DNA from: Lachnospiraceae bacterium
Lineage (GTDB): Bacteria; Bacillota; Clostridia; Lachnospirales; Lachnospiraceae
Direction of reading: 5' to 3'
Assembly (NCBI GenBank): GCA_029063085.1
Contig: JAIDOW010000068.1
Span: 32,001-71,032, forward strand
Length of the DNA stretch: 39,032 nt
Shown here: piece by piece, positions 15,512-38,961 of the stretch
Numbering within the stretch: the first letter of the stretch is position 1
How the letters are laid out: each line of letters begins with the position of its first letter
Translations under genes and position numbers: made by a program
The notes under the pieces: generated by a model
What the model saw: only the letters and a program-made list of their open reading frames with translations
What the model was told of the DNA's origin: nothing
Database searches by the model: none

Positions 15512-16960
15512 TTACACCTCAAACCGAAAGCTGACATCTGATAGACGGATGATATCTCCTCCCTTGATTGGAACATATTCTCCAGGCATTGCCTGCTTCT
15601 CATTTACAAACGTATGGTTTGTGGAGTTATTATCCAATATAAAAAATTCATTTCCTTTTCGCATAATATCTGCATGGTGACGGCTCACGGACGTATTATC
15701 TGTAACTGCATAATCAATGTCTCCCAGATTTTGTCCAATGCGAAAAATTACATTGGATATGGGAATTTCCTGCATGGTATCCAATCGAATTAATTTTGCA
15801 TAAATAACCAGATTTTTTTCCTCTCCTATGCCAATATTTCCCTCTGTCTTCAGCCTTTTTATCTGCATTTTAATCCGAATGCTTAATAAAATAAAAACAA
15901 TAATTACTATACACATCCCGATTTGCAGCATGCGAACCGGATATTCCTTTTTTCGAAGCTTTCCTTTATATTTAAGCAGCTGTTCTACTGCCTGCTGGTA
16001 ATCATCATATGTTGCTTCCGCATTCACTGTAACTTCTATCGCTTGAGAAATGGCTGATTTCAAGCCTTGTACACTTTTTTTAGTGTAATTCGTTCCCTTC
16101 ATTACAAGATCTTCACATTCCAGCAAAAGCTGATTCAGCTCTATCCTGATTTCTTCCGTAACTTCGTTATAATGATTGCCTCCTTCCTCGCCCTGATACC
16201 GAATATTTAATACATCCAATATCTTTTTCACTTTATCGATTGGCTTTATATAAACTCCTGTTTCTTTCTCTGCGATAATACCCACAACATATCCTTCCGC
16301 ATTCAACACTGGTATACCGGGACTGATACCCTCCAAAGAATAATCTGTAACAATTTCATCCTCTCCTACGGAAGTCACTTGTGCCACATTTTTTTGCAGA
16401 TCAAAATCACTGATTTCTGTTCGTCCTAAAATATCACTGTTTCCACTGTAGCCTGAAATATATATTTTATCATTTTTTTTAACCGAAGAACTATTCCCCA
16501 AACCCAAACTCTTCACATTATTAATATTGTTTGCCAGATTTAATATTACAAAATCTTCCCCAGAACTTCCTGTCTCGGTTCGTATTCTTGTTCCAACCTG
16601 TAATACAATATCTGTTTCTATATTTAAATCTCCTTCCGCAGAAAGACCATATTGCCGTCGTATTTTATTTATTAATTCCTCATCTGTCTGAACAAACTGA
16701 TCATTTGATAATACAATTTTTTCACCATCACCGGTTTCTACCAATATACCGGTTCCCTGTTTCACATAATATTCATTCCCACTTTGGTCTACTGCATAAA
16801 GCAGCAGTTTAACGATACCCGGTTCTGCTTCCGTGACTTTTTGTGGCAGTTCGGATTCTGTACTTCCGGATGCTGCTGCCTGACTGCTTGTACCAATGAT
16901 CCATATGAAAATCAGCAGCCATACTATAATATTCTGAACGCATTTTTTATTTGTCTGCAT
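15512..16960 (-). CDS. Membrane pseudo-protease with C-terminal FHA domain
   Basis: 482 residues from ATG 16960 (MQTNKKCVQN), which has GGAG six nt upstream; frames further upstream start at TTG or at a poorly spaced ATG. Order: signal peptide or anchor (1-30), chymotrypsin/HtrA-like domain (about 45-255), helical linker, TM helix (about 345-365), cytoplasmic FHA domain (about 390-482; NTSVSRHHADI and NNSTNHTFVNE). Alignment with the paralog at 37339-38961 shows that the catalytic His is Gln (Q88), while Asp136 remains and the serine motif GNSGG has become GISPG (S213). It is therefore probably inactive. It follows the WXG100 genes after a hairpin. Confidence 0.8.
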   Translation of the reverse strand: MQTNKKCVQNIIVWLLIFIWIIGTSSQAAASGSTESELPQKVTEAEPGIVKLLLYAVDQSGNEYYVKQGTGILVETGDGEKIVLSNDQFVQTDEELINKIRRQYGLSAEGDLNIETDIVLQVGTRIRTETGSSGEDFVILNLANNINNVKSLGLGNSSSVKKNDKIYISGYSGNSDILGRTEISDFDLQKNVAQVTSVGEDEIVTDYSLEGISPGIPVLNAEGYVVGIIAEKETGVYIKPIDKVKKILDVLNIRYQGEEGGNHYNEVTEEIRIELNQLLLECEDLVMKGTNYTKKSVQGLKSAISQAIEVTVNAEATYDDYQQAVEQLLKYKGKLRKKEYPVRMLQIGMCIVIIVFILLSIRIKMQIKRLKTEGNIGIGEEKNLVIYAKLIRLDTMQEIPISNVIFRIGQNLGDIDYAVTDNTSVSRHHADIMRKGNEFFILDNNSTNHTFVNEKQAMPGEYVPIKGGDIIRLSDVSFRFEV

Positions 16961-16982
16961 ACCGTTCTCCATTCTTATGCAC

Positions 16983-17015
16983 AAATAGTACAGAGGCAAT
17001 GCCCCTGTACTATTT
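16983..17015 (-). other. Intercistronic hairpin after the last WXG100 gene
   Basis: Near-perfect inverted repeat: 16983-16997 pairs with 17001-17015 except one A-C mismatch (GTACAG/CTGTAC in the arms). It begins about 20 nt after the WXG100 stop codon, but no T-tract follows on the - strand. It suits mRNA end protection or partial attenuation better than full termination. Confidence 0.5.
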
Positions 17016-17035
17016 ACAATTACCTATTCTGTAAA

Positions 17036-17359
17036 TTATGCTATGACATCTGTTGCTAACGCACTTGCAATTGCTTCATTTGCCTTTTCGGTAGATTCAT
17101 ATTCTGCCGAAATTTGCTCTAAGTCAGTGGAATATTCTGTAATCATCCGATACATCTGATCCATATCTTCTTCCAGCTTTGCAAACTGCTTTTTATAGGC
17201 CTCTGCCGCATCACCAGACCATACTGCCCCGTTAATCTGCTTTATCAGGTTTAACATCCTGTCTGTCGTATTATGTACCTTTGACGCCTTAGTCTTAAAT
17301 TCTGAAGCTTTACTCTTTAACTCACTTGGTTTTACTTTTAACTCCGACATACCTGCCAT
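17036..17359 (-). CDS. WXG100 (ESAT-6-like) protein 5
   Basis: 107 residues, two-helix hairpin with the WxG turn WSG at residues 47-49 (INGAVWSGDAAEAYKKQF). Near the C-terminus, YESTE gives the YxxxE secretion motif. Such proteins are exported as dimers by type VII systems and are often needed for export of other substrates. Its end (ANEAIASALATDVIA) resembles the protein at 18092-18409 (SIKQIASALPVDVLS), suggesting a duplicated pair. It is the last of the five consecutive WXG100 genes. Confidence 0.92.
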   Translation of the reverse strand: MAGMSELKVKPSELKSKASEFKTKASKVHNTTDRMLNLIKQINGAVWSGDAAEAYKKQFAKLEEDMDQMYRMITEYSTDLEQISAEYESTEKANEAIASALATDVIA

Positions 17360-17393
17360 AATCTTTTACTTCCTTTCTTAATTAATTTTATTA

Positions 17394-17699
17394 TTAGTAT
17401 GAACGTTTCTTAGCTGTCTGGACATTCTTTTTCTCACCTTGTTCATACAGCTTCATAATGGATTCCAATGCCCCCACATATTTGGTAACCAGACTCGTAA
17501 ACTTGTCAAAGGATGCGCCATCCTTCTCGTAAGTAGTATTAAAAGCCTTTGCCGCATCACCTACCCACATCCCCATTAAAGATTTCTCTGTCTCATCCAA
17601 ATCTTTAATCTGCTTTTTTAAATCTGTGTTTAACTGTTCCAATTCGCCCTTCTTTTTATCAAGCGCACTTTCCGTTAACCTGATCTCTGAAACTGCCAT
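17394..17699 (-). CDS. WXG100 (ESAT-6-like) protein 4
   Basis: 101 residues with the WxG turn WVG at 45-47 (LMGMWVGDAAKAFNTTYE). The C-terminal helix carries YEQGE (YxxxE) and ends with a basic tail QTAKKRSY. AAGGAGG precedes the ATG. The sequence differs enough from its neighbours that it is probably a distinct partner rather than a recent copy. Confidence 0.92.
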   Translation of the reverse strand: MAVSEIRLTESALDKKKGELEQLNTDLKKQIKDLDETEKSLMGMWVGDAAKAFNTTYEKDGASFDKFTSLVTKYVGALESIMKLYEQGEKKNVQTAKKRSY

Positions 17700-17740
17700 A
17701 TCGTTTCCTCCTTAAAATAAATGATTAATTGTTTCTATAT

Positions 17741-17759
17741 ATATCTGCATTGCAGATAT
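17741..17759 (-). other. Short perfect hairpin at the stop codon of WXG100 protein 3
   Basis: ATATCTGCA (17741-17749) and TGCAGATAT (17751-17759) form a perfect 9-bp stem around one base. It overlaps the first base of the stop codon and has no T-tract. Candidate mRNA processing or stability element. Confidence 0.35.
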
Positions 17760-18079
17760 TATGACTTTTGATAAGACCGCATTTTTGCAATCCGGATACT
17801 TTCCATTTCGGCATCATAAATTTCCTTTGCCATCTTCTTGATTGCATCAGAAATCTTCCTGATATCATCTGCGGAATCTTCTACCTGATCCTTAAGCTTC
17901 TTGCTCTTGGCAAGAAACTTTTTGGAATTTTCCCCATCCCAGTTTTTATCAATTGCCTGTATACTGTCATTCAATTTATCTGTTGCAATCTTACGAATAT
18001 CATTAGATATATTTAATAAGCTGTTAGCCTGTTGAATCGCTTTATTATAATTAAACTGAATTGTCTGTTCACTTGCCAT
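17759..18079 (-). CDS. WXG100 (ESAT-6-like) protein 3
   Basis: 106 residues with WDG at 47-49 (IDKNWDGENSKKFLAKSK) between two long helices. Unlike its neighbours it lacks an exact YxxxE: the C-terminal helix has YDAEM in that place, and it ends RIAKMRSYQKS. The RSY ending is shared with protein 4. GGGAGGG precedes ATG 18079. It may be a partner that lacks its own signal and leaves as a heterodimer; this is inference. Confidence 0.9.
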   Translation of the reverse strand: MASEQTIQFNYNKAIQQANSLLNISNDIRKIATDKLNDSIQAIDKNWDGENSKKFLAKSKKLKDQVEDSADDIRKISDAIKKMAKEIYDAEMESIRIAKMRSYQKS

Positions 18080-18091
18080 AATTACCCTCCC

Positions 18092-18409
18092 TTAACTTAG
18101 TACATCTACTGGTAATGCCGATGCAATCTGCTTAATAGACTGTTCTGTCTCTTCATATACACCTGCCATTTCCTGTAAATCCTTAGGATGTTCCTTTAGA
18201 CGTTTGATTATGGTTTTTAAATCATCCTTCATCTTATTAAAGCTCTTAATATGCTGGTCACTGGCTTCTCCTTCCCAATACTTTTTCGTACCGGTCACCA
18301 GCTGCTCAATCTTTCCAAAATCTGTTTCAATTGCACTGATCTCCTTTGAAATCTCATCCGATTTCTTCTTCAATTCTTCCGGAGTTACTTTTAATGTTAT
18401 AGAAGCCAT
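18092..18409 (-). CDS. WXG100 (ESAT-6-like) protein 2
   Basis: 105 residues with WEG at 45-47 (GTKKYWEGEASDQHIKSF) and YEETE (YxxxE) in the C-terminal helix. The tail IASALPVDVLS matches the tail of protein 5. AGGAGG precedes the ATG. It lies 12 nt downstream of protein 1. Confidence 0.92.
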   Translation of the reverse strand: MASITLKVTPEELKKKSDEISKEISAIETDFGKIEQLVTGTKKYWEGEASDQHIKSFNKMKDDLKTIIKRLKEHPKDLQEMAGVYEETEQSIKQIASALPVDVLS

Positions 18410-18420
18410 CCCTTTACCTC

Positions 18421-18726
18421 CTAAATCGTAATACTATCAATCAAATCAGATACTTTCTGTTCACATGCGTCATATTCTTTCTTGGCATTCTTTTCATAAT
18501 TGATCACACTTTGAATATTGTCGCAAATTAACCCTAAATCCGTAATATCATCCTGAAATGCCTGGTTGAATGCCTCATTTGCTTCACCTGTCCACATCGC
18601 ATTTAATGCATTTACGTCTGCCTGCATCGCCTGAATCTTCTTTTTAATGTCATTTAATGCCTGAGAAATTGAATCCGTATCCCTTTTCAGTGTTGACGTA
18701 TTGATCTTAATCTTAGTAATTGCCAT
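18421..18726 (-). CDS. WXG100 (ESAT-6-like) protein 1
   Basis: 101 residues from ATG 18726 (MAITKIKIN); an in-frame ATG 18 nt upstream overlaps the GGAGG that probably serves as ribosome binding site, so the inner start is preferred. WTG is at 45-47 (NAMWTGEANEAFNQAF) and the C-terminal helix has YDACE (YxxxE). First of the five WXG100 genes. Confidence 0.9.
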   Translation of the reverse strand: MAITKIKINTSTLKRDTDSISQALNDIKKKIQAMQADVNALNAMWTGEANEAFNQAFQDDITDLGLICDNIQSVINYEKNAKKEYDACEQKVSDLIDSITI

Positions 18727-18749
18727 CCTAACTTGTACCTCCATCCTTT

Positions 18750-19106
18750 TCAGATAATATTAATATGAAACTTTCTTAATATTGCTTGTGTCTTTTCAAT
18801 ATCAATCCGTTTAAAAACCGGACTGCTTCCGGACGTATTAGAAATATTTTTTATGATTGCTTTTTCCGTATTATCGTATTCTCTTACAACCTCTGACAGT
18901 ACTTTCCTTAATTTCTTCATTGATTGGTATTCGCTATTCAAGTCATCAGAAATTTTTTTCAAAGTACGCTTATCATTCCCCTCTTTTTCCATACTCCGAT
19001 ATTCATAGACAATTCTTTCAAAAGCATCTAACTGCCTTTTATACGTCATCTCCGCAGCCTGCAATTCGTCTATGACCATTTTCACTTTGTTTATTGAAAT
19101 ATCCAT
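18750..19106 (-). CDS. Helical WXG100-like protein without the WxG turn
   Basis: 118 residues from ATG 19106 (MDISINKVKMV), with AAGGTGG just upstream. A longer frame to 19148 would begin at or upstream of the predicted transcription start, so it is rejected. The protein is two long helices with no tryptophan-glycine turn; the second ends with REYDNTE, a YxxxE motif as in the WXG100 proteins. A tail of about 35 residues follows. First gene of the transcription unit driven by the LytTR-type promoter at 19147. Possibly a diverged substrate or adaptor. Confidence 0.7.
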   Translation of the reverse strand: MDISINKVKMVIDELQAAEMTYKRQLDAFERIVYEYRSMEKEGNDKRTLKKISDDLNSEYQSMKKLRKVLSEVVREYDNTEKAIIKNISNTSGSSPVFKRIDIEKTQAILRKFHINII

Positions 19107-19146
19107 CATAACCACCTTGCCTGTCTGCTTTTCTTTCAATGTATGC

Positions 19147-19155
19147 ACTATAACA
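19147..19155 (-). promoter_or_regulatory. Extended -10 promoter of the WXG100 operon
   Basis: On the - strand TGTTATAGT, an extended -10, 28 nt downstream of the 20-bp repeats. The -35 position reads GAAAAA, far from consensus, so an activator is expected. The predicted transcript starts near 19140, giving a leader of about 35 nt before ATG 19106. Confidence 0.72.
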
Positions 19156-19180
19156 TATCTTTCCTGTTATTTTTCATTTT

Positions 19181-19220
19181 TGCGACGAATAACCAGTTTT
19201 TGCGACGAACGACCAGTTTT
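19181..19220 (-). promoter_or_regulatory. Tandem 20-bp direct repeats, candidate LytTR operator
   Basis: Two copies, TGCGACGAATAACCAGTTTT (19181-19200) and the same with C and G at unit positions 10 and 12... differing at two positions (19201-19220). Same repeat, period and distance to the -10 as at 13453-13492. The LytTR regulator gene lies about 950 bp upstream in the same direction. Confidence 0.78.
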
Positions 19221-19242
19221 ATCTAAAAAGAACCCCTCCTGA

Positions 19243-19491
19243 CTACACCATATATAATCTGCAACCATTTACAATTCCGTTTTCTTCTAATGTAGAATCC
19301 CCATTTAGTACAATACCCTGTTCCATAGAACATAAAAAGAATTTTTCCGATTTATCATTCAGCTCTGTCTTATATTTCTTACACATCATTTCACTGATTT
19401 CCTGAACAACATTCGTTACCTTTGCCGTCTCATCAATTCTAAAATCAAGAGTCTCATCCAACGAAGGAATATAAACATCAACTAATATCAT
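19243..19491 (-). CDS. YukD/EsaB-like ubiquitin-fold T7SS protein
   Basis: 82 residues. MILVDVYIPSLDETLDFRI at the start and the closing NGIVNGCRLYMV match the YukD/EsaB family, a ubiquitin-like fold found in Firmicute type VII loci, where EsaB influences secretion or substrate expression. It starts inside the end of the upstream gene (14-bp overlap) with GAGGAGG six nt before the ATG. It is the last gene before the WXG100 promoter; no clear terminator separates them. Confidence 0.82.
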   Translation of the reverse strand: MILVDVYIPSLDETLDFRIDETAKVTNVVQEISEMMCKKYKTELNDKSEKFFLCSMEQGIVLNGDSTLEENGIVNGCRLYMV

Positions 19492-20188
19492 ATAATGCCT
19501 CCTCTGCCACGTTTACTACCATATCTAAAAATGTCTCCTTTTTAAAAGAATTCATCTGCTCCTTCCCTTCTTTAAAACATAACTGCTTTTTTTCTTCCTG
19601 CCCCTGTTTTATAAGCATACGGCAGTCTACTTTACCATTTTTCAGATTCATTCTTTCTATCATGATAATGATATTCCCCAGGGAATCTATCGTCTCACTT
19701 TGCAATATATAAGGATATTCCATTATGACATCCGTTAAACGCTCTTCATCCAAGACCTGCTTATATTGCTTTTCCTTTTCCTTGATGTCCTCTTCCAGAA
19801 AATCACACAGTTCCTCTTTAGGAATCTCATATAACCGAATTGCATTCATATCCGTTTCTCTTCGTTCAGCAGCTATCAGTTTTTTTCCTATATAAATGAT
19901 CTTGGATTGCATTCTCCCCAAAAAACTACGTATCAGAAGAATTGTATGTGCCTGCGAAATAGCAGTCATCATTTCTTCTAAATCCTCATTTAAATAAAAA
20001 CCGTCCTGTGGTGCATTATATATAAACTGCTGTTCATAAAGATGGTTTAGTGCCTGAAAAACCGCCGCTTCTTCTATCTGTAACGACTCCTCCTCCAAAT
20101 CAAATATTCCATGAATGTTTTTACCTGCTGCAATTACATTCAATTCTACTGGGGTTAAAATGTAGACCGAATTAATATCCTTTTCCAT
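19478..20188 (-). CDS. Unknown T7SS-locus protein, EspG-like pattern
   Basis: 236 residues, soluble, not firmly recognised. The N-terminus (YILTPVELNVIAAGKNIHG, then about residues 40-56 AVFQALNHLYEQQFI) reads like a winged-helix segment and recalls the start of mycobacterial EspG chaperones (threonine/leucine-rich start, aligned helices, then L..L...G). The middle (70-170) is helical; the end has alternating strands. It overlaps the LytTR gene by 17 bp and the yukD-like gene by 14 bp, so it is tightly coupled to the secretion genes. The EspG link is inference only and needs a profile or structure comparison; other possibilities include a DUF5081-type protein. Confidence 0.5.
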   Translation of the reverse strand: MEKDINSVYILTPVELNVIAAGKNIHGIFDLEEESLQIEEAAVFQALNHLYEQQFIYNAPQDGFYLNEDLEEMMTAISQAHTILLIRSFLGRMQSKIIYIGKKLIAAERRETDMNAIRLYEIPKEELCDFLEEDIKEKEKQYKQVLDEERLTDVIMEYPYILQSETIDSLGNIIIMIERMNLKNGKVDCRMLIKQGQEEKKQLCFKEGKEQMNSFKKETFLDMVVNVAEEALYDIS

Positions 20189-20891
20189 TCTTAACCACCT
20201 CCTTGATCACCGGTTTATAACTTCGTGACAACGGAATCTCTATATTATTTTTTAAAACGATAAAATTCCTGGAATACCATATTTCATCCACATATGACAG
20301 GTTTACAATATAGCCTCTATGGCAGCGCTTAAAATTCTCCGGCAGCTGTTCTTCCAATGTATCCATTGTCCCGCATACTCCATATTCCCTGCTGGAAAGC
20401 CTTACATAAATTCTCTTGTTTCTCGCTTCAAAATACAGAATCTGGGAATACGGAATATGTCTCTGCTCCCTGCTGTCCTCAAAGGAAAAAAATTTTTCTT
20501 TATCTCCCTTATTCCGTTCCAATAAAGAAAATATACTTTTTAACCTTTTTTGAATCTCGTTGTATTGCAGCGGCTTTAACAACAATGAAACAGCCCGGAT
20601 ATCCGGAATCAGATAAAGAACCGGGGAAACTGTATTATCCGAAATAATAATAATCTCTGCTCTGCCAAAACGCTTTCTCAAATCCTTTGCAGCCTGTAAT
20701 CCACTATGTTCCGTAATATCAACAAAAGCAATATCTATAGTACCTATCTGCTGCTTTTCCATATCCTCTGGTGACTTAGCAACTATAGTCTCTATCCGGT
20801 CATCATAAAAGTATGCAACCATATCCCTTGAGATTTCCTGTAATAATTCAATTTCGTCCTGCTTACAACTATAAATAAGCATCGAAATCAT
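20172..20891 (-). CDS. LytTR-family regulator with degenerate receiver domain
   Basis: 239 residues. The N-terminal half is a receiver-like domain: the phosphoacceptor position is Asp58 (IDIAFVDITEH) and the lysine motif is LLKPLQ, but the Mg-binding acidic pair near the start is replaced by S8-C9 (MLIYSCKQDE). The C-terminal half (about 130-235) is a LytTR DNA-binding domain: SRNFIVLKNNIEIPLSRSYK and FKRCHRGYIVNL are typical. AGGAGG eight nt upstream supports ATG 20891. No histidine kinase lies nearby. It is the natural candidate for binding the 20-bp repeats at 13453 and 19181. Signal input may be non-phosphorylated. Confidence 0.9.
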   Translation of the reverse strand: MISMLIYSCKQDEIELLQEISRDMVAYFYDDRIETIVAKSPEDMEKQQIGTIDIAFVDITEHSGLQAAKDLRKRFGRAEIIIISDNTVSPVLYLIPDIRAVSLLLKPLQYNEIQKRLKSIFSLLERNKGDKEKFFSFEDSREQRHIPYSQILYFEARNKRIYVRLSSREYGVCGTMDTLEEQLPENFKRCHRGYIVNLSYVDEIWYSRNFIVLKNNIEIPLSRSYKPVIKEVVKNGKGY

Positions 20892-20896: not shown

Positions 20897-23800
20897 TTAC
20901 CTCCTAGCAAGTGGAACGATAATTTTTTGTATTTCACCGTTTAATCTGCTTGAAATTAATCCAATACCCGGCTTTAACAGCATAGACTGTTCTTTATACG
21001 GTATCGCATCAAAATTATAAATACGATTTTCAGCAGTATTTCCACCAAAATGAATTCCTGTTTTATAGCTCACAAAAATCTCATAAATCCTTTGATAATC
21101 CACTGTCGAAATATTTTCCAGACCAATAATGCCAATAAAATAAATATTCAACAATCTTCCCTTTTCAAGAATATTTTCTAAAAATCCCCGCATATCCAGC
21201 TCTGCATTATAAATCAAATTGATGAACCATTCCAAATCTGAAATAAAGAAATAAATAGGCAGCTCCTCGCACATACGTTTAAAAATCTCTGATTCTTCTG
21301 CATCTTCATCCTGCATTTCTTTTCTTATCTGGCTTCGGTTCTTAAATTCCGGTATCACTTTGGAAAAACATTCAAAAATTCCTTTTTCATCCGTCACATA
21401 TTGTATTTCTTCTTTTTCTTCAAAAATTCTCATAGGCTTTGCTTCGCTGTCAAATATGTAAACATCTCCGGCTCTTTTTACCGCTGATTGAATCATAATC
21501 TTCATATAATTCTTTTTACCTGATCTTGCAAGACCGGTAATCATATAACAATAGGTATCACTTAAATCAATGCTGTAGACGGATGCATTTTCTGCATCAT
21601 ATGCAACAGGCAGATACTGCTTGTCCTCCAATACCCGTTCATAATCTTCCAATTCACTAAACTCAGACCAAACCGGCTTTTCCGGTATCTCCGGTATTGG
21701 ACGGGCTTTTTTCTTTGTCCAATGCTTGCGCATATCTTCACAAAGCAGTCCGATTTTCTTAATCCTCTGATAATCATCCTCTGCTTCACATGCCAATGCT
21801 GTCTGATACTCCAGAATCCGGTTTCCATAATATGCAAGTCCACGACCTTTGATATTTGCCTCCGGTACTACATCAAATGCCACTGTATGCATGATATCGC
21901 CATATGCATATTTATCTGCCATTTCTGTAGTAATAAACGTTTTAATATTCTCTGCTGCCCGGGACGGAATATCCGCAGGCCCGATTCCAGAACCGGTAAG
22001 TAACAGATAAATACCATGGCTGACACCTTCCTTTGATAAAGTGACAAGAAAATCAACATATTCTTCTTCTGTTTTTTCATTAAATGCTGATACATTATCT
22101 ATAATGATAAGAAGCATCGGAAGTATAACACCGTTTACCTGCACATACTGACTGTAATTACCACCTCTGAATAGCTTCTTTCTTTCCTCTAAAATAGACT
22201 GTATCATATTAAAGAATTTAGAGATTTTCTCATAATCTCCTTCATACATGACACCACCCACATGAGGTGCTTTTTCAAATGCGGTCATCATTTTACTGCT
22301 GAAATCAATTGCATATATATTGATATATGCCGGCGAATATTTATTGATCAGTGCATAAGTTATTGTTTGTACAGATGTACTGCGGCCACTGACCACCATA
22401 CCGCAGACCGCATGATGTCCACCCTCTGTAAAGTTTATTGTAACTGGCATTTGTGCCTGATTTTGCGGATCATCATAGAGTCCCAGAACAACTTCAATAT
22501 TCCATTCACTTTCTGCTTCAGTCCACCTGCCATCCTGATATCGGGAAGCAGTAAATTCATCAAATTCATCCAAATACATATGAGTGGGAAGTACTGGCAT
22601 CCATAGTTGCAATTCATGCGTATACCCATTTTCTTTCGCCATCTTTCCCAGATATTCTTTTACAGCATCTAATTGGGTTTTATCCTTTGCCTGCGGCAGC
22701 TTGATATTATTCTGCTCCGCACGGGAAATCATGGAAGCGATCACATTTTCTGTTCCCATACAATGATGATATAAATCAATATAATCCTCAAGACGTGCCG
22801 TATTATAAGCACTAATTGGATAATCAATCATATCTGCCTCAAGCATCTGATAAATATTATCTATTACCGCCTGCTGTTTTGACTTTACCTTCATACATTC
22901 TTCAAGAATGGTCTGCTCTTTATCCAATGCTGCCAATAAATACCCCTCTATAATAGACAGCCACTCTGCCTGGGCTTTTTCTTTCTGGGATATTTTTGCA
23001 AAATTACCTGTCATATCCGTCCTGCCATTCAGTGTAATTAATTTTGCAATATCTGTTTTGCTGTCTGTATCATCTTCGCTATATACCGCCCCGCTGAATC
23101 CTGACTGGAACAGTTCAAACACCTCGTCATTACCAACCTGCAGGTAACAGCGTCCTGCCTGCGTGATATACGCCGCATCCGGTTTATGAAGCATATCATT
23201 ACTGTCCTGCCTGTCCTGCACACGCAGACACAATCTGAACTTTGAATTACTCCAGATATTATCATCTACCGTTCCGCTTGGTTTTTGTGTAGCCAGAATT
23301 AAATGTACGCCCAGACTTCGTCCTACCTGTGCCACACTGACCAGTTCTTTCATGAAATCCGGCTCTTCTCTTTTTAATTCCGCAAACTCGTCAATAATGA
23401 TAAACAAATGCGGTACAGGGATACTTACTTCATTATTTTTATACAATTTTGTATATAGATTAATATTGTTAACACCACTTTCCGTAAAGATTCTCTGTCT
23501 TCTCCGGTTTTCGCTTTTAATGGATACCATCGCCCGGTGGACCTGATTCCCCGACAAATTGGAAATCTGACCAATCAAATGAGGAAGACCATTAAACAGA
23601 TTTGCCATTCCTCCTCCCTTATAATCAATAATGAAAAATCCAATATCATCCGGACTGTAGTTGACTGCCAGCGACAACATATATGTCTGAAGAGTTTCAC
23701 TCTTACCGGAACCTGTTGTACCTGCTACCAATCCATGGGGACCATGATATTTTTCATGAACATCCAGATAACTGGGGGCACCTCCGGCTTTGGCTCCGGT

Positions 23801-25898: not shown

Positions 25899-26492
25899 TT
25901 ATATAAAATGTATGTTCAATGTTGTTTCTCCCAGTTCAATCGTATCATTCTCCAAAAGCTTAACAGCATCTTTTCCCAACTGCATAACATTACGTTTACG
26001 CCGGACATGTACCGGATGGGTATCCTCCATCGTCTGAATGTATAAGCATTGTTCATGGCAGAATATTCTGCACTGCTCTTTTGCAATTTTTAAATCATTT
26101 AACACCAATGCATTATCTCCGCTTCTGCCAATCGTTATCATATCTGATATAAAAATTACATATTTTCTTGTTGACAACTTCCCCTTCTCGATAATCTGAA
26201 CAGCAATATTTTCATTTGTTCCCCTATTATTCTCTACTTCTTCATGAAAGCTGATTTCATAGGGAATATTGTTCTGGAAAGCTTTATCACTATTCCCCTG
26301 ATAAAGCCTGTTTCTTAATATCTGATCCAGTTTCTCTTCTCTGGCCTTTTCTTTTTGCAGCGTATTCATTTCCACTACTCGCTTTTTTTCTTTCTTCAAT
26401 CTAATAAAATAGACAAATAAAAATCCCAGAACAGCTGCTTCATAACAACAGACTGCCAGATTAGAAAATACAATTTCTATGATTTTATCCAT
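25899..26492 (-). CDS. Membrane-anchored FHA-domain protein
   Basis: 197 residues: an N-terminal membrane helix (about 10-31), a charged stretch, and a C-terminal FHA-like domain (about 105-197; MITIGRSGDNALVLND). The usual SxxH of FHA domains is KEQCR here, so phosphothreonine binding may be altered. It lies 16 nt upstream of essC and likely docks near it; the kinase and phosphatase in the same locus could control that contact. An unusual 31-nt palindrome precedes its ribosome binding site. Confidence 0.8.
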   Translation of the reverse strand: MDKIIEIVFSNLAVCCYEAAVLGFLFVYFIRLKKEKKRVVEMNTLQKEKAREEKLDQILRNRLYQGNSDKAFQNNIPYEISFHEEVENNRGTNENIAVQIIEKGKLSTRKYVIFISDMITIGRSGDNALVLNDLKIAKEQCRIFCHEQCLYIQTMEDTHPVHVRRKRNVMQLGKDAVKLLENDTIELGETTLNIHFI

Positions 26493-32247: not shown

Positions 32248-34155
32248 TTATTTTTTTACTCTCATAGTACTTTTATATCCTGTTTTCTTCTTTAAAAGCT
32301 TTTTATATGCCTTATATTTTTTTGCCGGAACATTAAATACCGCCCGTTTATATATTCCTTTAAATGCATTTTTCCCGATTGTCTTGACAGATGTACCTTT
32401 AAATGTAACTTTATTCAATTTCTTACATCCATAAAATGCATTTGCCTTAATTTCCTTTATATTTTTCCCGATGGTCACTTTTTCAAGCTTTTTATGGTTT
32501 TTAAATGCATTTTTTCCGATAACGGTTACCTTATAAGTTACCCCTTTACAGGAAACAGTAGCTGGTATTGTAACCTTTTTTATCGTCTTGCTTCCCGTCT
32601 TAAACGCTTTACAATATTCTACCGTTTTTGCAGAAGACGAAACCACCTTATATGTCACATTTTTTGACTTAAATGTCTCATTTTTGCTTAACTCCTTCTG
32701 TTTCCATCCTGCATATAAAATAGTGTCTGCTGACAAACCCTGTTCGAAATTATACGGTATCGTACACTTTTCATCCATAAACCATCCAGTAAAAACATAT
32801 CCCTCCTTCATCGGTGCTAACGGTTCTTCAGCAGGATTACCTTCAACGATAATCTGATCCTGTATTATGTCCCCGCTATTTGTCTGATATGATACTTTGA
32901 TATACGGTCTCCACTTGGCGTATAAAATAGTATCTGACGAAATCTTTTTATTAAATTCATATGGTACAGTACATGCTTTATCCATATACCAGCCTGAAAA
33001 AGCAAATCCCGTTTTCTTTGGCTCAGCTGGTTCTTTGGCATAATTACTTCCTAATAATATCTGACTCTCTATTTCTCCCGCCCCATTGGTATCAAAACTG
33101 ATTTTAATACAGTCTGAAGTTTTAAAAGATACATTACATGCCGGTGCTACACTTGTATTCAAATCATTATAATGCCATCCGGACATACTCATTCCCCCTC
33201 TGAGCCCCCCGCATGTCATCCAATAACCTGATGCTTCACCTCTTGTCCTCAACCAAAAATGATCTACCACCCGATCCCTATAAGGAGTTTTTAACGCTGT
33301 TGCATAATCTGTTCCCCACAAAGCAGCAGAATGGCAAACCCCTAAGTCCTCAAAACCCTTTCTGTCATCTATGGTATCACAAAATCCATACTCCCCATTT
33401 GAAATTTCAGAATAGCTTAAGAAAAATAATTTATCCTCTGTATCATTTCCCCCTATCAGCAGGCTGCCATCACTTGCCGTATAGTACGGATTTGCATCTT
33501 GAACCACATCTGTAGTCAATATTCTGCTCTGTTCCTCTTCACTAAATGCGAAGCACATAAACCCTTTGCTTTTGTACTCTTTAGGTAATTGGGGGTCCAC
33601 TTTTCCGTCATAATTTAACCACCTGCGCAAAGGACTGTTTTCCCACTCTGCGCTCATAAAAAATTGAACGTCTAAAATACTGTCCACAAAAAGAAATAAT
33701 TTTTCTCCATCATTGCTTAGAATCTTCCACTTAATCGGTTCATACTGATAATAACGGTAGCCATTATAGCTGGTCTCATCCCATGCTTCCTTACTCCTTC
33801 CAAAAATGGTTCCTGATGATGTCATAGTCTCCCATGACATCCTTCTATATTTTTTCCCATTAATAGAGGTATCATTATTTACATCATATTTTGCATTTTG
33901 TAATTGGTTTATAAGAGCAGTGTCGCTAACTTCTTTTTGAGGATATGATCCAAAATACACATAGCAATATTTCGTTTTATGTGGAGTACCTTCTTCATTC
34001 CTTTCATATTTCATAGAATGCGTTGGAACATCCCTCACTGGATTTGCCAAATCCTCACTGCTTACTGCAAATACCTGTCCTTTTAGCATAGCTATCATGA
34101 TTACTACAAAAATCATACCATTTAGTTTTTTCCTGATAATTTTCCTTAACTTCAT
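32248..34155 (-). CDS. Exported DUF6273-like / InlB-repeat / BspA-like protein
   Basis: 635 residues with an N-terminal signal peptide (about 1-30). The region at about 40-340 resembles DUF6273 (EPIKWKILSNDGEKLFLF, SPLRRWLNYD, FSEEEQSRIL). Two Listeria-Bacteroides (InlB B) repeats follow: FSGWYMDKACTVPYEF and FTGWFMDEKCTIPYNF, each with TILYAKW or TILYAGW. The C-terminal part is BspA-type leucine-rich (IGKNAF, IKANAFYGCKKL, IGKNAFKGI). It has no membrane anchor, so it is probably secreted or wall-associated. It lies 23 nt before the Ig-like gene. Role in the secretion system is unknown. Confidence 0.75.
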   Translation of the reverse strand: MKLRKIIRKKLNGMIFVVIMIAMLKGQVFAVSSEDLANPVRDVPTHSMKYERNEEGTPHKTKYCYVYFGSYPQKEVSDTALINQLQNAKYDVNNDTSINGKKYRRMSWETMTSSGTIFGRSKEAWDETSYNGYRYYQYEPIKWKILSNDGEKLFLFVDSILDVQFFMSAEWENSPLRRWLNYDGKVDPQLPKEYKSKGFMCFAFSEEEQSRILTTDVVQDANPYYTASDGSLLIGGNDTEDKLFFLSYSEISNGEYGFCDTIDDRKGFEDLGVCHSAALWGTDYATALKTPYRDRVVDHFWLRTRGEASGYWMTCGGLRGGMSMSGWHYNDLNTSVAPACNVSFKTSDCIKISFDTNGAGEIESQILLGSNYAKEPAEPKKTGFAFSGWYMDKACTVPYEFNKKISSDTILYAKWRPYIKVSYQTNSGDIIQDQIIVEGNPAEEPLAPMKEGYVFTGWFMDEKCTIPYNFEQGLSADTILYAGWKQKELSKNETFKSKNVTYKVVSSSAKTVEYCKAFKTGSKTIKKVTIPATVSCKGVTYKVTVIGKNAFKNHKKLEKVTIGKNIKEIKANAFYGCKKLNKVTFKGTSVKTIGKNAFKGIYKRAVFNVPAKKYKAYKKLLKKKTGYKSTMRVKK

Positions 34156-34189
34156 CCGCCAAATCCTCCTTCATTATTCTTATAATTTT

Positions 34190-34717
34190 TTATATTTCCG
34201 CTCTTACTTTCTTCTTCGTGATTATTTCATCTGAAAACATCACTATTTTTGTCTCAACAATATCAAAAGGTTCCTCTTCCTTACGTTTGTATTCCATATC
34301 TGGCTTTTTCTGCATTCTATGTGATTCCGTAAGTACCTTTAAAGGTACTGTTTCCTTGGCCTCCTGATCCAGTTTTACAGTAACCGAAACAATGGGCTGT
34401 ACTTCCATCTCCTGCAAAGCAGTATCCGATCCTTTCTTCTGTTCCTCCACTGTTTCTATCTTTTGCCCTGATACATCTTCATTTTGCTTTTTATACAAAG
34501 AAACCGAATGTGCTTTGTACTTTTTCCTCTTTGCATTATCCTCCTTCTGATTTATTCTATATAATTCCTTTACACTTTGTTTTACTGCCCAACCTGTCTT
34601 AATACTGATTATTCTCCGGATATCAAATACAAAGAAAAATACAAACAGCAAAACAAACAAAATAATTGTTATCACTAAAAATACTATGAACAATGTATGA
34701 TAAACCTCTAAAGTCAT
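34190..34717 (-). CDS. Single-TM hypothetical protein of the T7SS operon
   Basis: 175 residues, not recognised. A long hydrophobic helix (residues 9-31; TIILFVLLFVFFFVF) is followed by IRRIISIKTGWAVKQSVKELY and then a charged, Lys/Glu-rich, probably unstructured tail, with VSVTVKLDQEAKETVPL in the middle. The basic residues after the helix predict a cytoplasmic tail, rich in Thr and Ser that the neighbouring kinase could modify. It lies between the kinase and the exported proteins. Confidence 0.6.
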   Translation of the reverse strand: MTLEVYHTLFIVFLVITIILFVLLFVFFFVFDIRRIISIKTGWAVKQSVKELYRINQKEDNAKRKKYKAHSVSLYKKQNEDVSGQKIETVEEQKKGSDTALQEMEVQPIVSVTVKLDQEAKETVPLKVLTESHRMQKKPDMEYKRKEEEPFDIVETKIVMFSDEIITKKKVRAEI

Positions 34718-34734
34718 ACTACCTCTCCCCTATC

Positions 34735-34812
34735 GCTTGTAACCAATTTTTCTTTACAAAATTGACTGTCTGCTTGCCCGCCTATCTGCTTCTATAACCA
34801 ATTGCAAACCAA
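34735..34812 (-). repeat. Intergenic repeat element copy 2
   Basis: Holds an inverted repeat CAATTTT/AAAATTG (34744-34764), GCCTATCTG (34780-34788), CCAATTG (from 34798) and TGTAACCAA, words shared with 26510-26606. Both copies lie in the only two gaps over 100 nt inside the operon, each upstream of a gene for a membrane protein. Confidence 0.45.
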
Positions 34813-34831
34813 AATCTTGCCTGTATAAACA

Positions 34832-36526
34832 TTATTGCTTCACCTCATCAAAAGCAATTTGTATCATTTTCTCTGCCTGATTTAAATTATCCTGGAGTTT
34901 GTTATGTAATTCCTCTTCGTATGGGTTCTCTTTATCATACATTATAGCTTCCCTAACCAATGTCAGCTGCCGTTCCATATCTTCTTTCAGTACACCAGCA
35001 TCTTTGTAATCCTGTGTATGCAAAACCAGCTGGTTTGCCATAAAATTATACATAACCAAAGCCGTCACATTATTATCTTCTGCCGCTAAGTCCGGTGTTA
35101 TAACAGCCGACAAATCTTCCCACAACTTTGCATAACTGCCTTCATAATCCCCTTCTCTATTAACTGTATCCAGACTGCGGTAATACCGGATAATCTCATA
35201 CAAATGTCGGGCACGAAATGCTTTTTTTTCTCCAAGAATCTTATCAATATCCTCTTCCTGAATCCCTTCTATCGTATTTCCAATGGCAATATTTAACCAT
35301 TTTGATGCATTTTGTATATCCTCTGAGTTTTCAAAATAATAAAAATACATGATACCCAGCTCATAAGCGATCTGTATATAACTTTCTGTATTTTCCGCTA
35401 AGTCTTCCATATAAGCAGGCATAACTTTACGAATTTCCTGACTTTCGGATTCCGAAAATACACCGTCCGCCTGCATTGTTTCAAGTAATGCTTTATATGC
35501 CTCTCCTTTTATGGGAGACAGTTCAATGGCCTTTTCATAAAATTGATATTTTTCATCTATATCCAATGCCATGGATGCTGTGTTCAAATACTCTTCATAG
35601 GTACTAGAGGCTTTTTTGTTCATTCCTATATAGCATCCTATCGTAGCCAATACCATAAATATCATGAGAACTGCCGTTGATAAAAAGGTATACCATTTTA
35701 TTTCCTGAACTTTTTTGTACTCCTCCTCCTCTTCTTCATAATGCTCCAGAGCATATAATAATTCTGCGCATGTTTGGTAACGGTCATTCGGATTTTTCTG
35801 AGTGCATTTCAAAATAATTTTCTCTAATCCCGATGAAAAAGACGGGTTCCAATAACGGATAGGATACATCTCATATGGTGGGTCACTTGGGTTATGCCCT
35901 GTTACTAAATGATAAATTGTTGCCCCTAAACAATATATATCCGTTCTTGCGTCTGTCTGTCCCTTACCACCAAACTGTTCCGGTGCTGCATAACCACGGG
36001 TCCCCAGACAGCTTGTATCTTCTATATTTTGTTCTTTAAATTCTCTTGCAATTCCGAAATCTATCAGCATAACAGAACCATCCGATTTTAGCATTACATT
36101 AGATGGTTTCATATCACGATATATAATAGGCGGCTTTCTTGTATGAAGATATTCCAAAACATCACAGAGCTGCTTTGCCCATTCTATAACATCTTCACAT
36201 GGCAGACTTCCTTTTTCCTTCAGTGCATCGCTTAATGGATTTCCTTCAATATAATCCATAACAATCAAAAAAATGTCTTTTTGATCGATCACATCAATGA
36301 TACTTGGTAAATTAGGATGGTTAAGCTTTTTTAACAGTTTGGTCTCTACAATCTGACTTTGTTTAATCACTTCAAAATCTGTCTGTCCATCTTTTCTGAC
36401 TTCTTTAATTGCCCATGGTTTATTTGCCCGTTCATTTACTGCCAAATAAACAGTGCTCATTCCGCCCTTCCCGATCTTATTTAATATTTTATATTTTCCA
36501 TCAACAACAGTGCCGATTTCTAACAT
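34832..36526 (-). CDS. Transmembrane Ser/Thr protein kinase
   Basis: 564 residues. The Hanks-type kinase domain (about 1-262) is complete: glycine loop GKGGMSTVY (19-27), Lys41, Glu61, catalytic YRDMKPSN (Asp138), DFG (Asp156), and P+1 loop GTRGYAAPEQ. An acidic stretch (EEEEEE) and a TM helix (about 278-302) lead to an extracytoplasmic helical region with TPR-like repeats (EKAIELSPIKGEAYKALLE). It has no PASTA domains, so it is unlike PrkC. The order (cytoplasmic kinase, TM, outside helical domain) parallels T7SSb EssB, whose kinase domain is inactive. Its start overlaps the phosphatase stop by 7 nt. Likely targets are threonines read by the locus FHA domains. Confidence 0.9.
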   Translation of the reverse strand: MLEIGTVVDGKYKILNKIGKGGMSTVYLAVNERANKPWAIKEVRKDGQTDFEVIKQSQIVETKLLKKLNHPNLPSIIDVIDQKDIFLIVMDYIEGNPLSDALKEKGSLPCEDVIEWAKQLCDVLEYLHTRKPPIIYRDMKPSNVMLKSDGSVMLIDFGIAREFKEQNIEDTSCLGTRGYAAPEQFGGKGQTDARTDIYCLGATIYHLVTGHNPSDPPYEMYPIRYWNPSFSSGLEKIILKCTQKNPNDRYQTCAELLYALEHYEEEEEEYKKVQEIKWYTFLSTAVLMIFMVLATIGCYIGMNKKASSTYEEYLNTASMALDIDEKYQFYEKAIELSPIKGEAYKALLETMQADGVFSESESQEIRKVMPAYMEDLAENTESYIQIAYELGIMYFYYFENSEDIQNASKWLNIAIGNTIEGIQEEDIDKILGEKKAFRARHLYEIIRYYRSLDTVNREGDYEGSYAKLWEDLSAVITPDLAAEDNNVTALVMYNFMANQLVLHTQDYKDAGVLKEDMERQLTLVREAIMYDKENPYEEELHNKLQDNLNQAEKMIQIAFDEVKQ

Positions 36527-37302
36527 GCATCCTCCCGTATCGCCTGAACAAGTACAGCCGTAATGTTATCCTCTTCCTGCCGGCTTTTTACAAGTTCTAC
36601 AAGCCATTTTAATTTTTCTTCTATTATCTTTTCATCTGTTAATATATCTGGTTGGAGATTTTCCCATATTTCCTGATTTGAAATCACATGTCGAAATCCA
36701 TCTGAACACAAAAGAAATGTTGACGATGCCTCATATTCCCCCGTATAAAAATCTGGCATCACAGAATTCCCCACTCCAATACACTGTAATAACACATTGC
36801 GCTGATCGCTATGTAAAGCCTCCTCCTCTGTCATTCTTCCCATATCGATCTCTTGTTGAATAAATGACTGATCTCTTGTCATCTGTCTGATTTGATCCTT
36901 TAAATGATAAACCCTGGAATCTCCTATATTACAAATATAATATGCATCATCCACTAACAATAATGCAGCCAGTGTAGTCCCTAAATAAATGCCGTGCTCT
37001 TCCCCATAATCACAAATCATACTATTCAGTTCTGATACAGTTTGTAACCAGCTGTTTTTAATTGCCTGAAAATTGAAATCATGATATAACAAATCCGGAA
37101 AAGTCTGTTCAAACCACTTTGACATTTCCGATATTACAGTTGAACTTGCCAATTCCCCTTTTTCCAGTCCTCCCATTCCATCACACACAACAGCAAAAAA
37201 TACCTCACCCATTTTTGTTTTTGCCTTGCGAATCAATGCTGCATCCTGATTTACCTTTTTACTAATCCCAATATCTGAATATATACCGGATAAATATCTC
37301 AT
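36520..37302 (-). CDS. PP2C-family Ser/Thr phosphatase
   Basis: 260 residues from ATG 37302 (MRYLSGIYSDIG), which has GGGG six nt upstream; an ATG 12 nt earlier lacks a binding site. Metal-binding motifs are intact: NQDAA, VVCDGMGGLEKGE, NIGDSRVY, LLCSDGF and EDNITAVLV. It is directly upstream of and overlapping the kinase, the classic pairing that reverses the kinase's phosphorylation. Compare PppA with PpkA in type VI secretion, where FHA proteins read the phosphorylation (an analogy, not homology of the machines). Confidence 0.93.
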   Translation of the reverse strand: MRYLSGIYSDIGISKKVNQDAALIRKAKTKMGEVFFAVVCDGMGGLEKGELASSTVISEMSKWFEQTFPDLLYHDFNFQAIKNSWLQTVSELNSMICDYGEEHGIYLGTTLAALLLVDDAYYICNIGDSRVYHLKDQIRQMTRDQSFIQQEIDMGRMTEEEALHSDQRNVLLQCIGVGNSVMPDFYTGEYEASSTFLLCSDGFRHVISNQEIWENLQPDILTDEKIIEEKLKWLVELVKSRQEEDNITAVLVQAIREDAC

Positions 37303-37338
37303 ACTTTTCCCCATTCTGTTATACTACCTACTTCACTG

Positions 37339-38961
37339 CTACATAATCTCAAATATAAACTCCTCATCTGCTGCTTTAATATAATCTCCGCTTTTTATTA
37401 CTTTCTCCTGATTTGCCGGTATCTGTTCATTATTTAGATATGTATAATTCGTAGAGCCTAAATCCATCAGATAATAATTCATTCCCTTTTTAATAATTTT
37501 CATATGACACCTGCTAATGGTGTTACTGCCACTAACAAAATAATTCACCCTCGTCTCGTCTTTTCCAACTGTAAATTCTACTGTATCAATAAGCCTCTTT
37601 TCTCCTGTTTTCTTTCTAATAAGATATGCTTGAATTTGCGGTGGTGCTGCATTTAATACTGTAGTAGCATTATTATTGGTATTCTCATGAATCCCTGCCA
37701 TATTTAATAAGGTGGTTTCTCTGTTTATGTCTTCCTGTGTAGCAGTTGTCTGCTGTCTTGCAGGGTATCCCATTTGATTAAAATTAGGAATCTCATTATC
37801 AGAAAGAGACATAAATTTATTATTTTCCTTTTTTTGTTTATTTGTCTTGCATAAAATTATGATCATGATTACTATAGCTGCAACAACTACAGCAATCCCA
37901 ACTATAATACCAATGATTAAAACCCAGTTGGTTTTTTTCACCATCTCCAGATTATCCATACTCTGTTGTAAAATCTTTTTTGCATCATCTATTTCTGCCT
38001 GTGTTGCCTGTTCATCATATTGAACCTGCTGTGCTTGTTGTAAACACGACATTAAGATTAAATAACTGTCACTTTTATAAAGAGACTGATCCAGTTTTAA
38101 AGCCTTATCTATACACTCACTTAAAGCCGACTTATCTATCAGTATTTCTGCTGTCACTTCTTCCGTTACTTCTTCTGTTGCTGCCACACTATTATCACTG
38201 TAGGTAATCCCCTCAAGATAAGGAAATTTAATTTCATTGATTGGAATAGCCCTAAAACATTCTTTTTTTCCATCTTCTTTATCATATGTTAAAATGCCAA
38301 TTACTTCACCAGTATTACCATTAATTAAGGCACCCCCCGAATTACCGCTGGAAATAATTCCACTTACTTTTATATTCTGAGATTCAACCTCCGATACAAC
38401 TCCCGCAACCAAATTTACATCCGTATTCTTAAACAGCTTTGCTCCTTCTTTACTAAATGGTTTTGTAGAAGGATATCCTACTGCCATGACATTTTCCGCA
38501 ACTACAATTACGTCACTATTTCCTAAAACTGCCGGTAGACAATCCGTTTCTTCCTCTAACGATAGAATTGCAAAGTCTTTTTCTTCACTTTCCTGTGCGA
38601 TTCCGGCATATATTAAAACATCATCTTTCTTAACAATTGCAATCTGCATGCCTTCCTCTCCGGAAAAATCAGCAGCTCCTCCATTCTTTACTATATAATC
38701 TTTTGCCTTTTTCAAGTTTTTTTCATTCATATGCACCAAATGATAATTGGTTAAAACAGTATTACTGTTAATTACAACTCCGCTTCCACTTTGTAAAACT
38801 AATCTCTTACCATCTGCTGCAGTATAAGTCATGATTACCTGAACAACACTATTCTTATTATTATTCAAATATTCTCCGTTAGCATTTGCTGTACTTTTAA
38901 CTGTTATTAATAATATTAATGCAATCATACATATTACATATCTACTAATCTTATTCTCCAT
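37339..38961 (-). CDS. Membrane trypsin-like protease with cytoplasmic FHA domain
   Basis: 540 residues. Order: signal anchor (1-28), HtrA/trypsin-like protease domain (about 35-260), helical linker, TM helix (about 346-370), FHA domain (about 440-540; SGSNTISRCHMKI and LGSTNYTYLNNEQI). The catalytic triad is complete: His74 (VLTNYHLVH), Asp129 (KDFAIL), Ser208 (SSGNSGGAL). The protease sits outside and the FHA inside, so cytoplasmic phosphorylation could be linked to proteolysis outside. It could be this locus's counterpart of mycosin, but the fold is different. It is the first gene of the operon visible here; AGGAAGG precedes the ATG. Paralog of the inactive protein at 15512-16960. Confidence 0.88.
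   Translation of the reverse strand: MENKISRYVICMIALILLITVKSTANANGEYLNNNKNSVVQVIMTYTAADGKRLVLQSGSGVVINSNTVLTNYHLVHMNEKNLKKAKDYIVKNGGAADFSGEEGMQIAIVKKDDVLIYAGIAQESEEKDFAILSLEEETDCLPAVLGNSDVIVVAENVMAVGYPSTKPFSKEGAKLFKNTDVNLVAGVVSEVESQNIKVSGIISSGNSGGALINGNTGEVIGILTYDKEDGKKECFRAIPINEIKFPYLEGITYSDNSVAATEEVTEEVTAEILIDKSALSECIDKALKLDQSLYKSDSYLILMSCLQQAQQVQYDEQATQAEIDDAKKILQQSMDNLEMVKKTNWVLIIGIIVGIAVVVAAIVIMIIILCKTNKQKKENNKFMSLSDNEIPNFNQMGYPARQQTTATQEDINRETTLLNMAGIHENTNNNATTVLNAAPPQIQAYLIRKKTGEKRLIDTVEFTVGKDETRVNYFVSGSNTISRCHMKIIKKGMNYYLMDLGSTNYTYLNNEQIPANQEKVIKSGDYIKAADEEFIFEIM

Follow-up and report, generated by a model that had tools for sequence, protein, structure and literature searches.

We find that a type VII secretion system (T7SS) locus of a Lachnospiraceae bacterium, carried as a minus-strand run of 18 genes from position 15,512 to the contig end in the 39,032-nucleotide stretch of DNA analysed here (the window; G000:C77:32001-71032), encodes a single-pass membrane protein, TM175, whose gene directly follows that of a Hanks Ser/Thr kinase and whose low-complexity cytoplasmic tail belongs to a family rich in the motif TxxL. 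As read from sequence, this enrichment in the tail of a kinase-adjacent transmembrane (TM) protein is an observation new here; a TxxL scaffold is not mentioned in the literature found, including the available portion of Garrett et al. 2024 (PMC11217815), in searches that were not built on the motif and covered mostly open papers. The same run encodes a PP2C phosphatase and four FHA-bearing proteins: the secretion ATPase EssC, a 197-residue TM-FHA protein, and two trypsin-type FHA proteins, protFHA1 and protFHA2. A preliminary description of this DNA, made from its letters alone, had listed the kinase, phosphatase and all four FHA proteins, an inventory that we confirm, and left the membrane tail beside the kinase unmentioned. 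We propose, at a probability of about one in two, that this tail may be a scaffold written by the kinase, read by FHA domains and erased by PP2C, which would gate the secretion complex.

Open reading frames (ORFs) were called mechanically, TM stretches are Kyte-Doolittle averages, and family labels come from jackhmmer searches on the fetched ORFs. Of 38 kinase loci, 30 by reading have a TM175 protein next after the kinase, or 28 under a strict rule, which misses a locus with an overlapping start (L007) and one with a split kinase ORF (L034). In four of the other eight loci the contig ends in or just past the kinase gene (L024, L027, L030, L036), and four lack TM175 after the kinase (L016, L019, L031, L033). 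The tails are rich in TxxL, as in ETTVL, ATEVL and ETELL: 33 members (K007 and G017 removed as fused, and K017, the same gene as G017, kept) contain 115 copies against 25.9 expected (1000 shuffles, maximum 41), with the motif present in 32 of the 33. Reduction to 27 representatives, each of at most 300 residues and one per 60%-identity cluster, leaves 87 copies against 18.6 expected (z 17; maximum of 500 shuffles, 32), in statistics that ignore shared ancestry; neither SxxL (20 vs 14.3) nor TxxxL (22 vs 18.8) is clearly raised. At least one TxxL occurs in 26/27 tails (13.0 expected) and at least two in 23/27 (4.3 expected; 1000 shuffles, maximum 9), and counting each distinct four-residue form once per tail still gives 73 against 18.8. 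As a guard against a chosen motif, residue pairs at spacings of 1 to 6 were scored in the same representatives: T followed by L at +3 comes first (z 17), with the runner-up at 6.9. Glu immediately before the Thr is likewise raised (56 vs 27.5).

The association extends beyond the family. A search through 391 genomes of the class shows TxxL-bearing TM proteins behind the kinase in all nine top-scoring loci besides the window (L169-L177, E of 3e-116 or better), and three of these (L173, L174, L176) come from three other families; judged by their tails, however, the proteins of L176, L170 and L171 are the ones already met in L029, L013 and L011, respectively. A further 20 loci (L178-L197, two of which have no kinase ORF) show no short TM protein with a TxxL tail within the fetched DNA, which extends only about 1.5 kb beyond each match, and in L184 the kinase is followed by a 66-residue TM protein with zero TxxL. 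In seven of these distant loci (L182, L186, L188, L190, L191, L193, L196) the kinase precedes a TM protein of 258-286 residues, as far as the fetched DNA extends, with 0-3 TxxL shown; these proteins may be CpaB/RcpC-like (Tad pilus).

A strict form of the motif recurs in front of FHA domains. A survey of 1846 distinct ORF products finds 59 that carry at least two strict motifs within 60 residues, namely 19 TM175 proteins, 26 with trypsin/FHA profiles, five EssC, one Ig-like (immunoglobulin-like) protein, one kinase and seven unlabelled products; the strict motif is not raised in the PP2C, LytTR, p236, YukD, WXG100 or Ig-like families. In 56 linkers between TM and FHA domain, whose ends were set by a crude hydropathy rule so that some are cut wrongly, it occurs 33 times against 3.3 expected and is present in 18 of the 56, compared with 10 against 9.8 in the regions before the TM. 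At least 16 of the 17 protease-FHA proteins that bear an SRxH signature have two or more TxxL within the 80 residues preceding the FHA domain, and in protFHA1 ETTLL and ATTVL stand 17 residues apart in this position. In GarA the FHA domain is preceded, towards the N terminus, by a phosphorylated ETTS motif (PMC12321487, in the portion available); the putative target in protFHA1 resembles this kinase-targeted ETT motif of GarA/OdhI in placement, and differs in that it is tandem and lies in a membrane-anchored protease-FHA protein instead of a soluble metabolic regulator.

The enzymes that would write and erase such marks appear intact. The kinase is complete, carries a TM-like stretch (residues 276-294), has its catalytic residues intact in 35/35 aligned sequences and on sequence grounds looks active; PP2C exceeds its family cut-off, and its metal-binding residues are present in 43-44 of 44 aligned. 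The kinase ectodomain is modelled as helical (predicted local distance difference test, pLDDT, 89.4), and none of its structure matches is strong (best E 0.027), TPR-type folds (BamD, CTPR, OGT) making up most of the top hits. EssB/YukC is absent among the best 50 of 658 matches, and we rejected the ectodomain as an EssB homologue. Some kinases of other than the window type in related loci are longer, and by eye TPR-rich.

The secretion core named in the preliminary description is borne out. EssC, whose N terminus carries an FHA domain, reaches 1076 bits with TIGR03928 (cut-off 778) and is the single above-cut-off EssC in the source genome; YukD reaches 28.7 bits (cut-off 27); and four of five consecutive WXG100 genes exceed the Pfam cut-off, the fifth (17759-18079) falling slightly below it (27.0 vs 27.3 bits). 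EssB (PF10140), EssA (PF10661) and EsaA (TIGR03929), which that description could not recognise at the locus, give 0 matches in the whole 96.45%-complete genome; as controls, PF10140 and PF10661 exceed their cut-offs in Bacillus subtilis, and TIGR03929 matches in four control genomes including B. subtilis, above its cut-off in one.

An EssC tree places this core apart from T7SSb. Neighbourhoods were drawn from 37 kinase-recruited genomes and from a family sample of 200 genomes, chosen irrespective of the kinase, in which 50 are EssC-positive and 35 of these were used; the 35 comprise 32 newly fetched genomes, with one neighbourhood each (two for G190), plus G000, G225 and G185, of which, by coordinates, G225 is G001 and G185 is G008. 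The other 15 EssC-positive genomes, and second EssC copies of some genomes, lie outside this set. In a FastTree phylogeny of 61 EssC rows the window sequence falls inside a 27-row clade (support 100; highest identity 81%, to G010), and seven T7SSb-type rows form with G012_C87 a separate 8-row branch (support 100); YukC/EssB is the identity of 5/7 ORFs tested, one ORF per T7SSb-type locus of the same family. Among the 19 clade loci with at least 5 kb on both flanks, a kinase is encoded nearby in 17, PP2C in 11 and a further FHA protein in 19, compared with 0/7 for kinase, PP2C and FHA neighbour alike in the T7SSb-type loci (5/7 with flanks of at least 5 kb); the remaining 27 mixed rows give 13, 11 and 16. 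When the 14 clade loci from the family sample are taken, a kinase or PP2C is present in nine against 0/7 T7SSb-type loci (Fisher p 0.007), and the five misses all fall short of 5 kb of flank on one side or both.

The EssC FHA domain follows the same division. Arg is among the residues usual in FHA domains; the domain in the window reads SRFH...SVNG, with Lys at the usual Arg position. The signature is found in 24/27 clade rows (the cut or split rows G066 and G184 being gapped there), 9/27 other rows and 0/7 T7SSb-type rows. FHA domains strictly need phosphothreonine (pThr), and their ELM motifs are pTxx[I/L/V] and pTxx[E/D] (PMC8786283, in the portion available). A motif of the pTxx[I/L/V] type co-exists here with an intact kinase, phosphatase and FHA residues, save for Arg replaced by Lys or Gln, and the preference for Thr over Ser at the motif argues for a pThr reading.

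We take the locus for a Lachnospiraceae T7SS of the kinase/PPM/Ig class, similar to T7SSe/T7SSj. In the mechanism that we propose, the TPR-like ectodomain of the kinase would sense an envelope or partner signal; the kinase would phosphorylate the Thr of TxxL in the TM175 tail and of the tandem TTxL before the FHA domain of protFHA1, as motif, position and intact kinase suggest; EssC and the TM-FHA proteins, to judge from the retained S, H and N-G residues of their FHA domains, would read pThr-x-x-L through those domains, so that EssC and its partners gather into the secretion complex; and PP2C would remove the phospho-marks. Where T7SSb has a phosphorylation-independent contact between EssB pseudokinase and EssC FHA domain, this locus would have an active kinase, a pThr scaffold and an EssC FHA domain competent to bind pThr. 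Like the preliminary description, we infer that threonine phosphorylation gates this T7SS; such control, with the type VI secretion system (T6SS) as precedent, had already been suggested in print, where loci of this type had also been described (PMC11217815, in the portion available), so neither the system type nor the phosphorylation idea is new. In the Agrobacterium tumefaciens T6SS a membrane kinase phosphorylates Thr14 of TssL, which Fha binds (PMC3953482, in the portion available). The PpkA-Fha-TssL pathway shares with our proposal a membrane kinase, a pThr-marked membrane protein and an FHA reader, and differs in its single Thr14 site with Glu at +3 and in serving an unrelated machine, whereas the scaffold considered here offers several TxxL in a low-complexity tail.

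The sensing side of the locus appears variable. The preliminary description had noted one protease, and protFHA1 indeed retains H-D-S; it had missed that protFHA2 is a second trypsin-like protein, whose histidine is lost in 4/4 aligned sequences, the window included. Protease-FHA proteins of G011, G013 and G190 have lost the serine motif, and in the three sister loci checked a vWA-TM-FHA protein (Pfam VWA and FHA) follows the WXG100 genes (L016:507-2045, L121:6675-8315, L132:12505-14067), where the window has its pseudotrypsin-TM-FHA protein. From this we infer that protease, pseudoprotease, vWA domain and kinase ectodomain are exchangeable sensors on a shared FHA/pThr interior. A wider and more tentative reading is that the locus represents a new T7SS subtype, in which a multi-site pThr scaffold recruits or gates EssC, FHA readers with exchangeable ectodomains turn outside signals into assembly, and the cassette, which works in other settings too, was captured by the secretion locus; on this reading the pseudokinase-FHA contact of EssB and EssC in T7SSb could be the frozen relic of such a switch.

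Several findings weigh against the scaffold. The strict TxxL form was defined after the tails had been inspected, and full-length kinase and EssC sequences show a weaker rise in it as well (z 5.2 each). In the window itself the TM175 tail contains no more than two TxxL, of which one is strict (0.28 TxxL expected, P 0.03), and the tail of L035 contains none. Within the EssC clade, TM175 is encoded nearby in only 9/27 loci, a window-type kinase in 11/27 and any kinase in 19/27, and the kinase-derived loci (L001-L038) are biased because they were recruited through the kinase. The FHA domains of the window carry Lys or Gln where Arg is usual, and the 197-residue TM-FHA protein is without the SxxH...N pThr-binding signature.

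The kinase set also occurs away from EssC, which weighs against the scaffold in the same way and leads to a rival that we hold to be somewhat unlikely, namely that kinase, PP2C, TM175 and FHA protein form a general envelope-signalling cassette lodged here, chiefly controlling the protease, the Ig-like protein or transcription. In the 200 family genomes, with limits of E up to 1e-60 for both proteins, EssC is found in 50 and the kinase in 51, both in 24, EssC only in 26, kinase only in 27 and neither in 123 (odds ratio 4.2, Fisher p 6e-5). The two are thus linked and non-exclusive, given that 27 of the 51 kinase-positive genomes, some of which match chiefly in the kinase domain, are without EssC; among the kinase-recruited genomes 26/37 have an above-cut-off EssC. 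The co-occurrence of the kinase set with essC expected by the preliminary description therefore holds as a statistical association and is taken partway to refutation by the kinase-only genomes and by stand-alone cassettes. One such cassette, FHA-PP2C-kinase-TM in L018, lies among housekeeping genes (upp/rpiB/cell-wall hydrolase, ABC-3 transporter) with a TxxL tail, its genome's EssC being on another contig, and L020, L021, L023 and L037 have the same gene order in genomes without an above-cut-off EssC. L003:9115-17486 keeps PP2C, kinase, TM protein and Ig-like protein at a syntenic site, directly before the YitT and Orn/Lys/Arg decarboxylase genes that also flank the window locus, with no EssC beside it and none above cut-off in its genome; L003 is a natural partial locus. 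Against the general cassette stand the closely spaced run that it forms with EssC in the window (gaps of at most 122 bases), the kinases near EssC in well-flanked clade loci and not in T7SSb-type loci, and the EssC FHA signature that is likewise kept in the clade and missing from T7SSb-type rows.

A further rival, which we judge unlikely, is that this is an ordinary T7SSe or T7SSj locus whose extra genes are local decoration and whose TxxL is a phosphorylation-independent docking motif. Systems T7SSc-T7SSj have been described with kinases, PPM phosphatases, FHA proteins and Ig-like giants, and kinase, PPM, YukD, WXG100 proteins, FHA-EssC, Ig-like giant and single-TM protein all figure in those descriptions (Garrett et al. 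2024, PMC11217815, as far as available). The preliminary reading of a non-canonical T7SS with a kinase-phosphatase-FHA circuit stands insofar as the locus is not T7SSb and the set recurs in the clade, and yields on novelty, a system of this kind being already published. Judged by reported features, the locus is nearest T7SSe/T7SSj and an exact fit to no subtype. With T7SSe it shares an FHA-EssC with largely kept pThr residues, at least two WXG100 proteins, YukD, a membrane kinase, PPM, a short single-TM protein and an Ig-like giant with C-terminal TM (compared with TseI by domain type and hydropathy, not orthology); it differs in the absence of TseJ (DUF6382-FHA), reported at all T7SSe loci, and in adding LytTR, p236, the TM-FHA protein and two (pseudo)trypsin-TM-FHA proteins. 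T7SSe has both TseH and TseK, whereas the window has one clear candidate, TM175, its other short single-TM protein bearing an FHA domain. With T7SSj it shares a kinase, PPM, Ig-like giant, single-TM protein and FHA-EssC, and its kinase ectodomain, to judge from weak matches, may be TPR-like as in T7SSj; the window is again without DUF6382-FHA, and LytTR and p236 are unmentioned in the available T7SSj section. The T7SSi of Vallitalea likewise has an FHA-EssC and a LytR-like regulator, TsiN, comparable by domain to the LytTR protein here; its FHA is reported to have poor pThr motifs, its section as available mentions no PPM or Ig-like giant, and its EspG-like protein has no proven counterpart in the window, p236 being an unproven one. 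T7SSb differs in EsaA, EssA and EssB, all unmatched here, and in the separate, EssB-bearing EssC branch.

The absence of DUF6382-FHA, together with LytTR and p236, both near EssC in 23/27 clade loci, and the Thr, not Ser, at the motif argue against this rival. DUF6382 (PF19909) is not among the window genes, with the caveat of the contig edge, and matches in the genome only on C111 and C13; it is present in 25/26 other clade genomes, and in none of those 26 does a match fall within the DNA fetched around the clade EssC, short contigs being a caveat. DUF6382 lies within a few kb of EssC at G009:C135, G009:C81 and G203:C33, all non-clade EssC copies. The two DUF6382 proteins of the source genome (L045, G000:C111; L046, G000:C13) are situated away from the T7SS, and two short ORFs beside the one on C111 may be TadE-like. 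Seven plasmid EssC records tried as named T7SSe references held distant EssC and none was useful. LytTR and p236 between EssC and YukD are the locus's own signature.

Quite improbable is that the kinase serves as a structural stand-in for EssB, binding the EssC FHA domain without a phospho-switch: the topology is shared (a kinase fold in the cytoplasm, a single TM and a helical part outside) and in T7SSb the EssB pseudokinase domain is an interaction partner of the EssC FHA domains (PMC11217815, in the portion available), but the intact active site, the overlap of phosphatase and kinase genes and the weak, mostly TPR-type ectodomain matches all speak against it.

Table 1 Features of the T7SS locus, with positions in the window, in minus-strand gene order.
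Feature	Positions	Strand	Family match or remark
protFHA1: TM-like start, trypsin-like protease, TM, cytoplasmic linker, FHA	37339..38961	-	Pfam Trypsin_2 + FHA
TTLL motif (ETTLL), N-terminal to FHA of protFHA1	37705..37716	-	
TTVL motif (ATTVL), N-terminal to FHA of protFHA1	37654..37665	-	
PP2C/PPM phosphatase	36520..37314	-	Pfam PP2C_2
Hanks Ser/Thr kinase, one TM, helical TPR-like ectodomain	34832..36526	-	Pfam Pkinase, 174 bits
TM175, single-pass membrane protein, TxxL tail, proposed pThr scaffold (TseH/TseK-like)	34190..34717	-	
TVKL motif, TM175 tail	34370..34381	-	
TVPL motif (ETVPL), TM175 tail	34340..34351	-	
635-residue protein, List_Bact-repeat/LRR_5/DUF6273	32248..34155	-	Pfam
1869-residue Ig-like protein, TM-like start, C-terminal TM (TseI-like)	26615..32224	-	Pfam Big_13 etc.
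197-residue TM + FHA protein	25899..26492	-	Pfam FHA
EssC/TsxC ATPase, N-terminal FHA	20897..25882	-	TIGR03928
LytTR response regulator	20172..20891	-	Pfam LytTR, 83 bits
p236, conserved protein	19478..20188	-	without family match
YukD/TsxB ubiquitin-like protein	19243..19491	-	PF08817
W6, small protein	18750..19148	-	adjoins YukD in relatives
Five WXG100 genes	17036..18744	-	PF06013
protFHA2: TM-like start, pseudo-trypsin, TM, FHA	15512..16999	-	Pfam Trypsin_2 + FHA

The final base of the window coincides with the contig end, so genes upstream of 38961 lie outside view. On the minus strand the order is protFHA1, PP2C, kinase, TM175, 635-residue protein, 1869-residue Ig-like protein, 197-residue TM-FHA protein, EssC, LytTR, p236, YukD, W6, five WXG100 genes and protFHA2, with the gaps from protFHA1 to YukD small or negative; a promoter scan was uninformative (78 found vs 86.7 in shuffles). 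The 635-residue protein is probably exported and is matched at the same locus position in a few close relatives, the Ig-like protein has TM-like stretches at residues 11-33 and 1829-1863 by hydropathy, and LytTR probably controls transcription. W6, the sixth small protein after the five WXG100 proteins, has no WXG100 match. The start of protFHA2 is uncertain because its first codon is TTG.

Profile searches of the window proteins return no family match for p236. Its lone DUF5081 match among 16 members (E 0.0023) is similar to those of unrelated NCBIfam families (0.004-0.005), and the DUF5081 search is uninformative because 0/249 genomes and zero controls matched; we take DUF5081 to be the EsaE family. 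An assignment of p236 as EspG/EsaE was rejected, with this weak match, no PDB match and a single-sequence model that was too poor.

Downstream of protFHA2, window positions 11821-15459 hold two tandem units, each of a 333-residue protein, Ala/Gly/Ser-rich beyond about 100 residues and without an above-cut-off family match, and a small protein that has two TM-like stretches, the small protein at 11821-12279 matching DUF3592; the units are candidate T7SS substrates with membrane partners. In a close relative (L010:1432-9183) the W6-WXG100-protFHA2 block lies upstream of protFHA1 and not downstream of YukD. Two T7SS copies in L010 were considered and dropped in favour of one locus with the WXG100 block shifted upstream, and from this difference in placement the locus seems to be built of two movable blocks.

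Single-TM proteins with short unstructured tails are listed among T7SS components with no role given in the available portion of the source (PMC11217815). The TxxL tail gives this protein a concrete proposed job, that of an FHA docking strip with named residues. If the proposal is true, the substrate of the kinase and the switching of the FHA-bearing EssC would be explained, and the locus would supply a phospho-controlled equivalent of the contact that EssB and EssC make in T7SSb.

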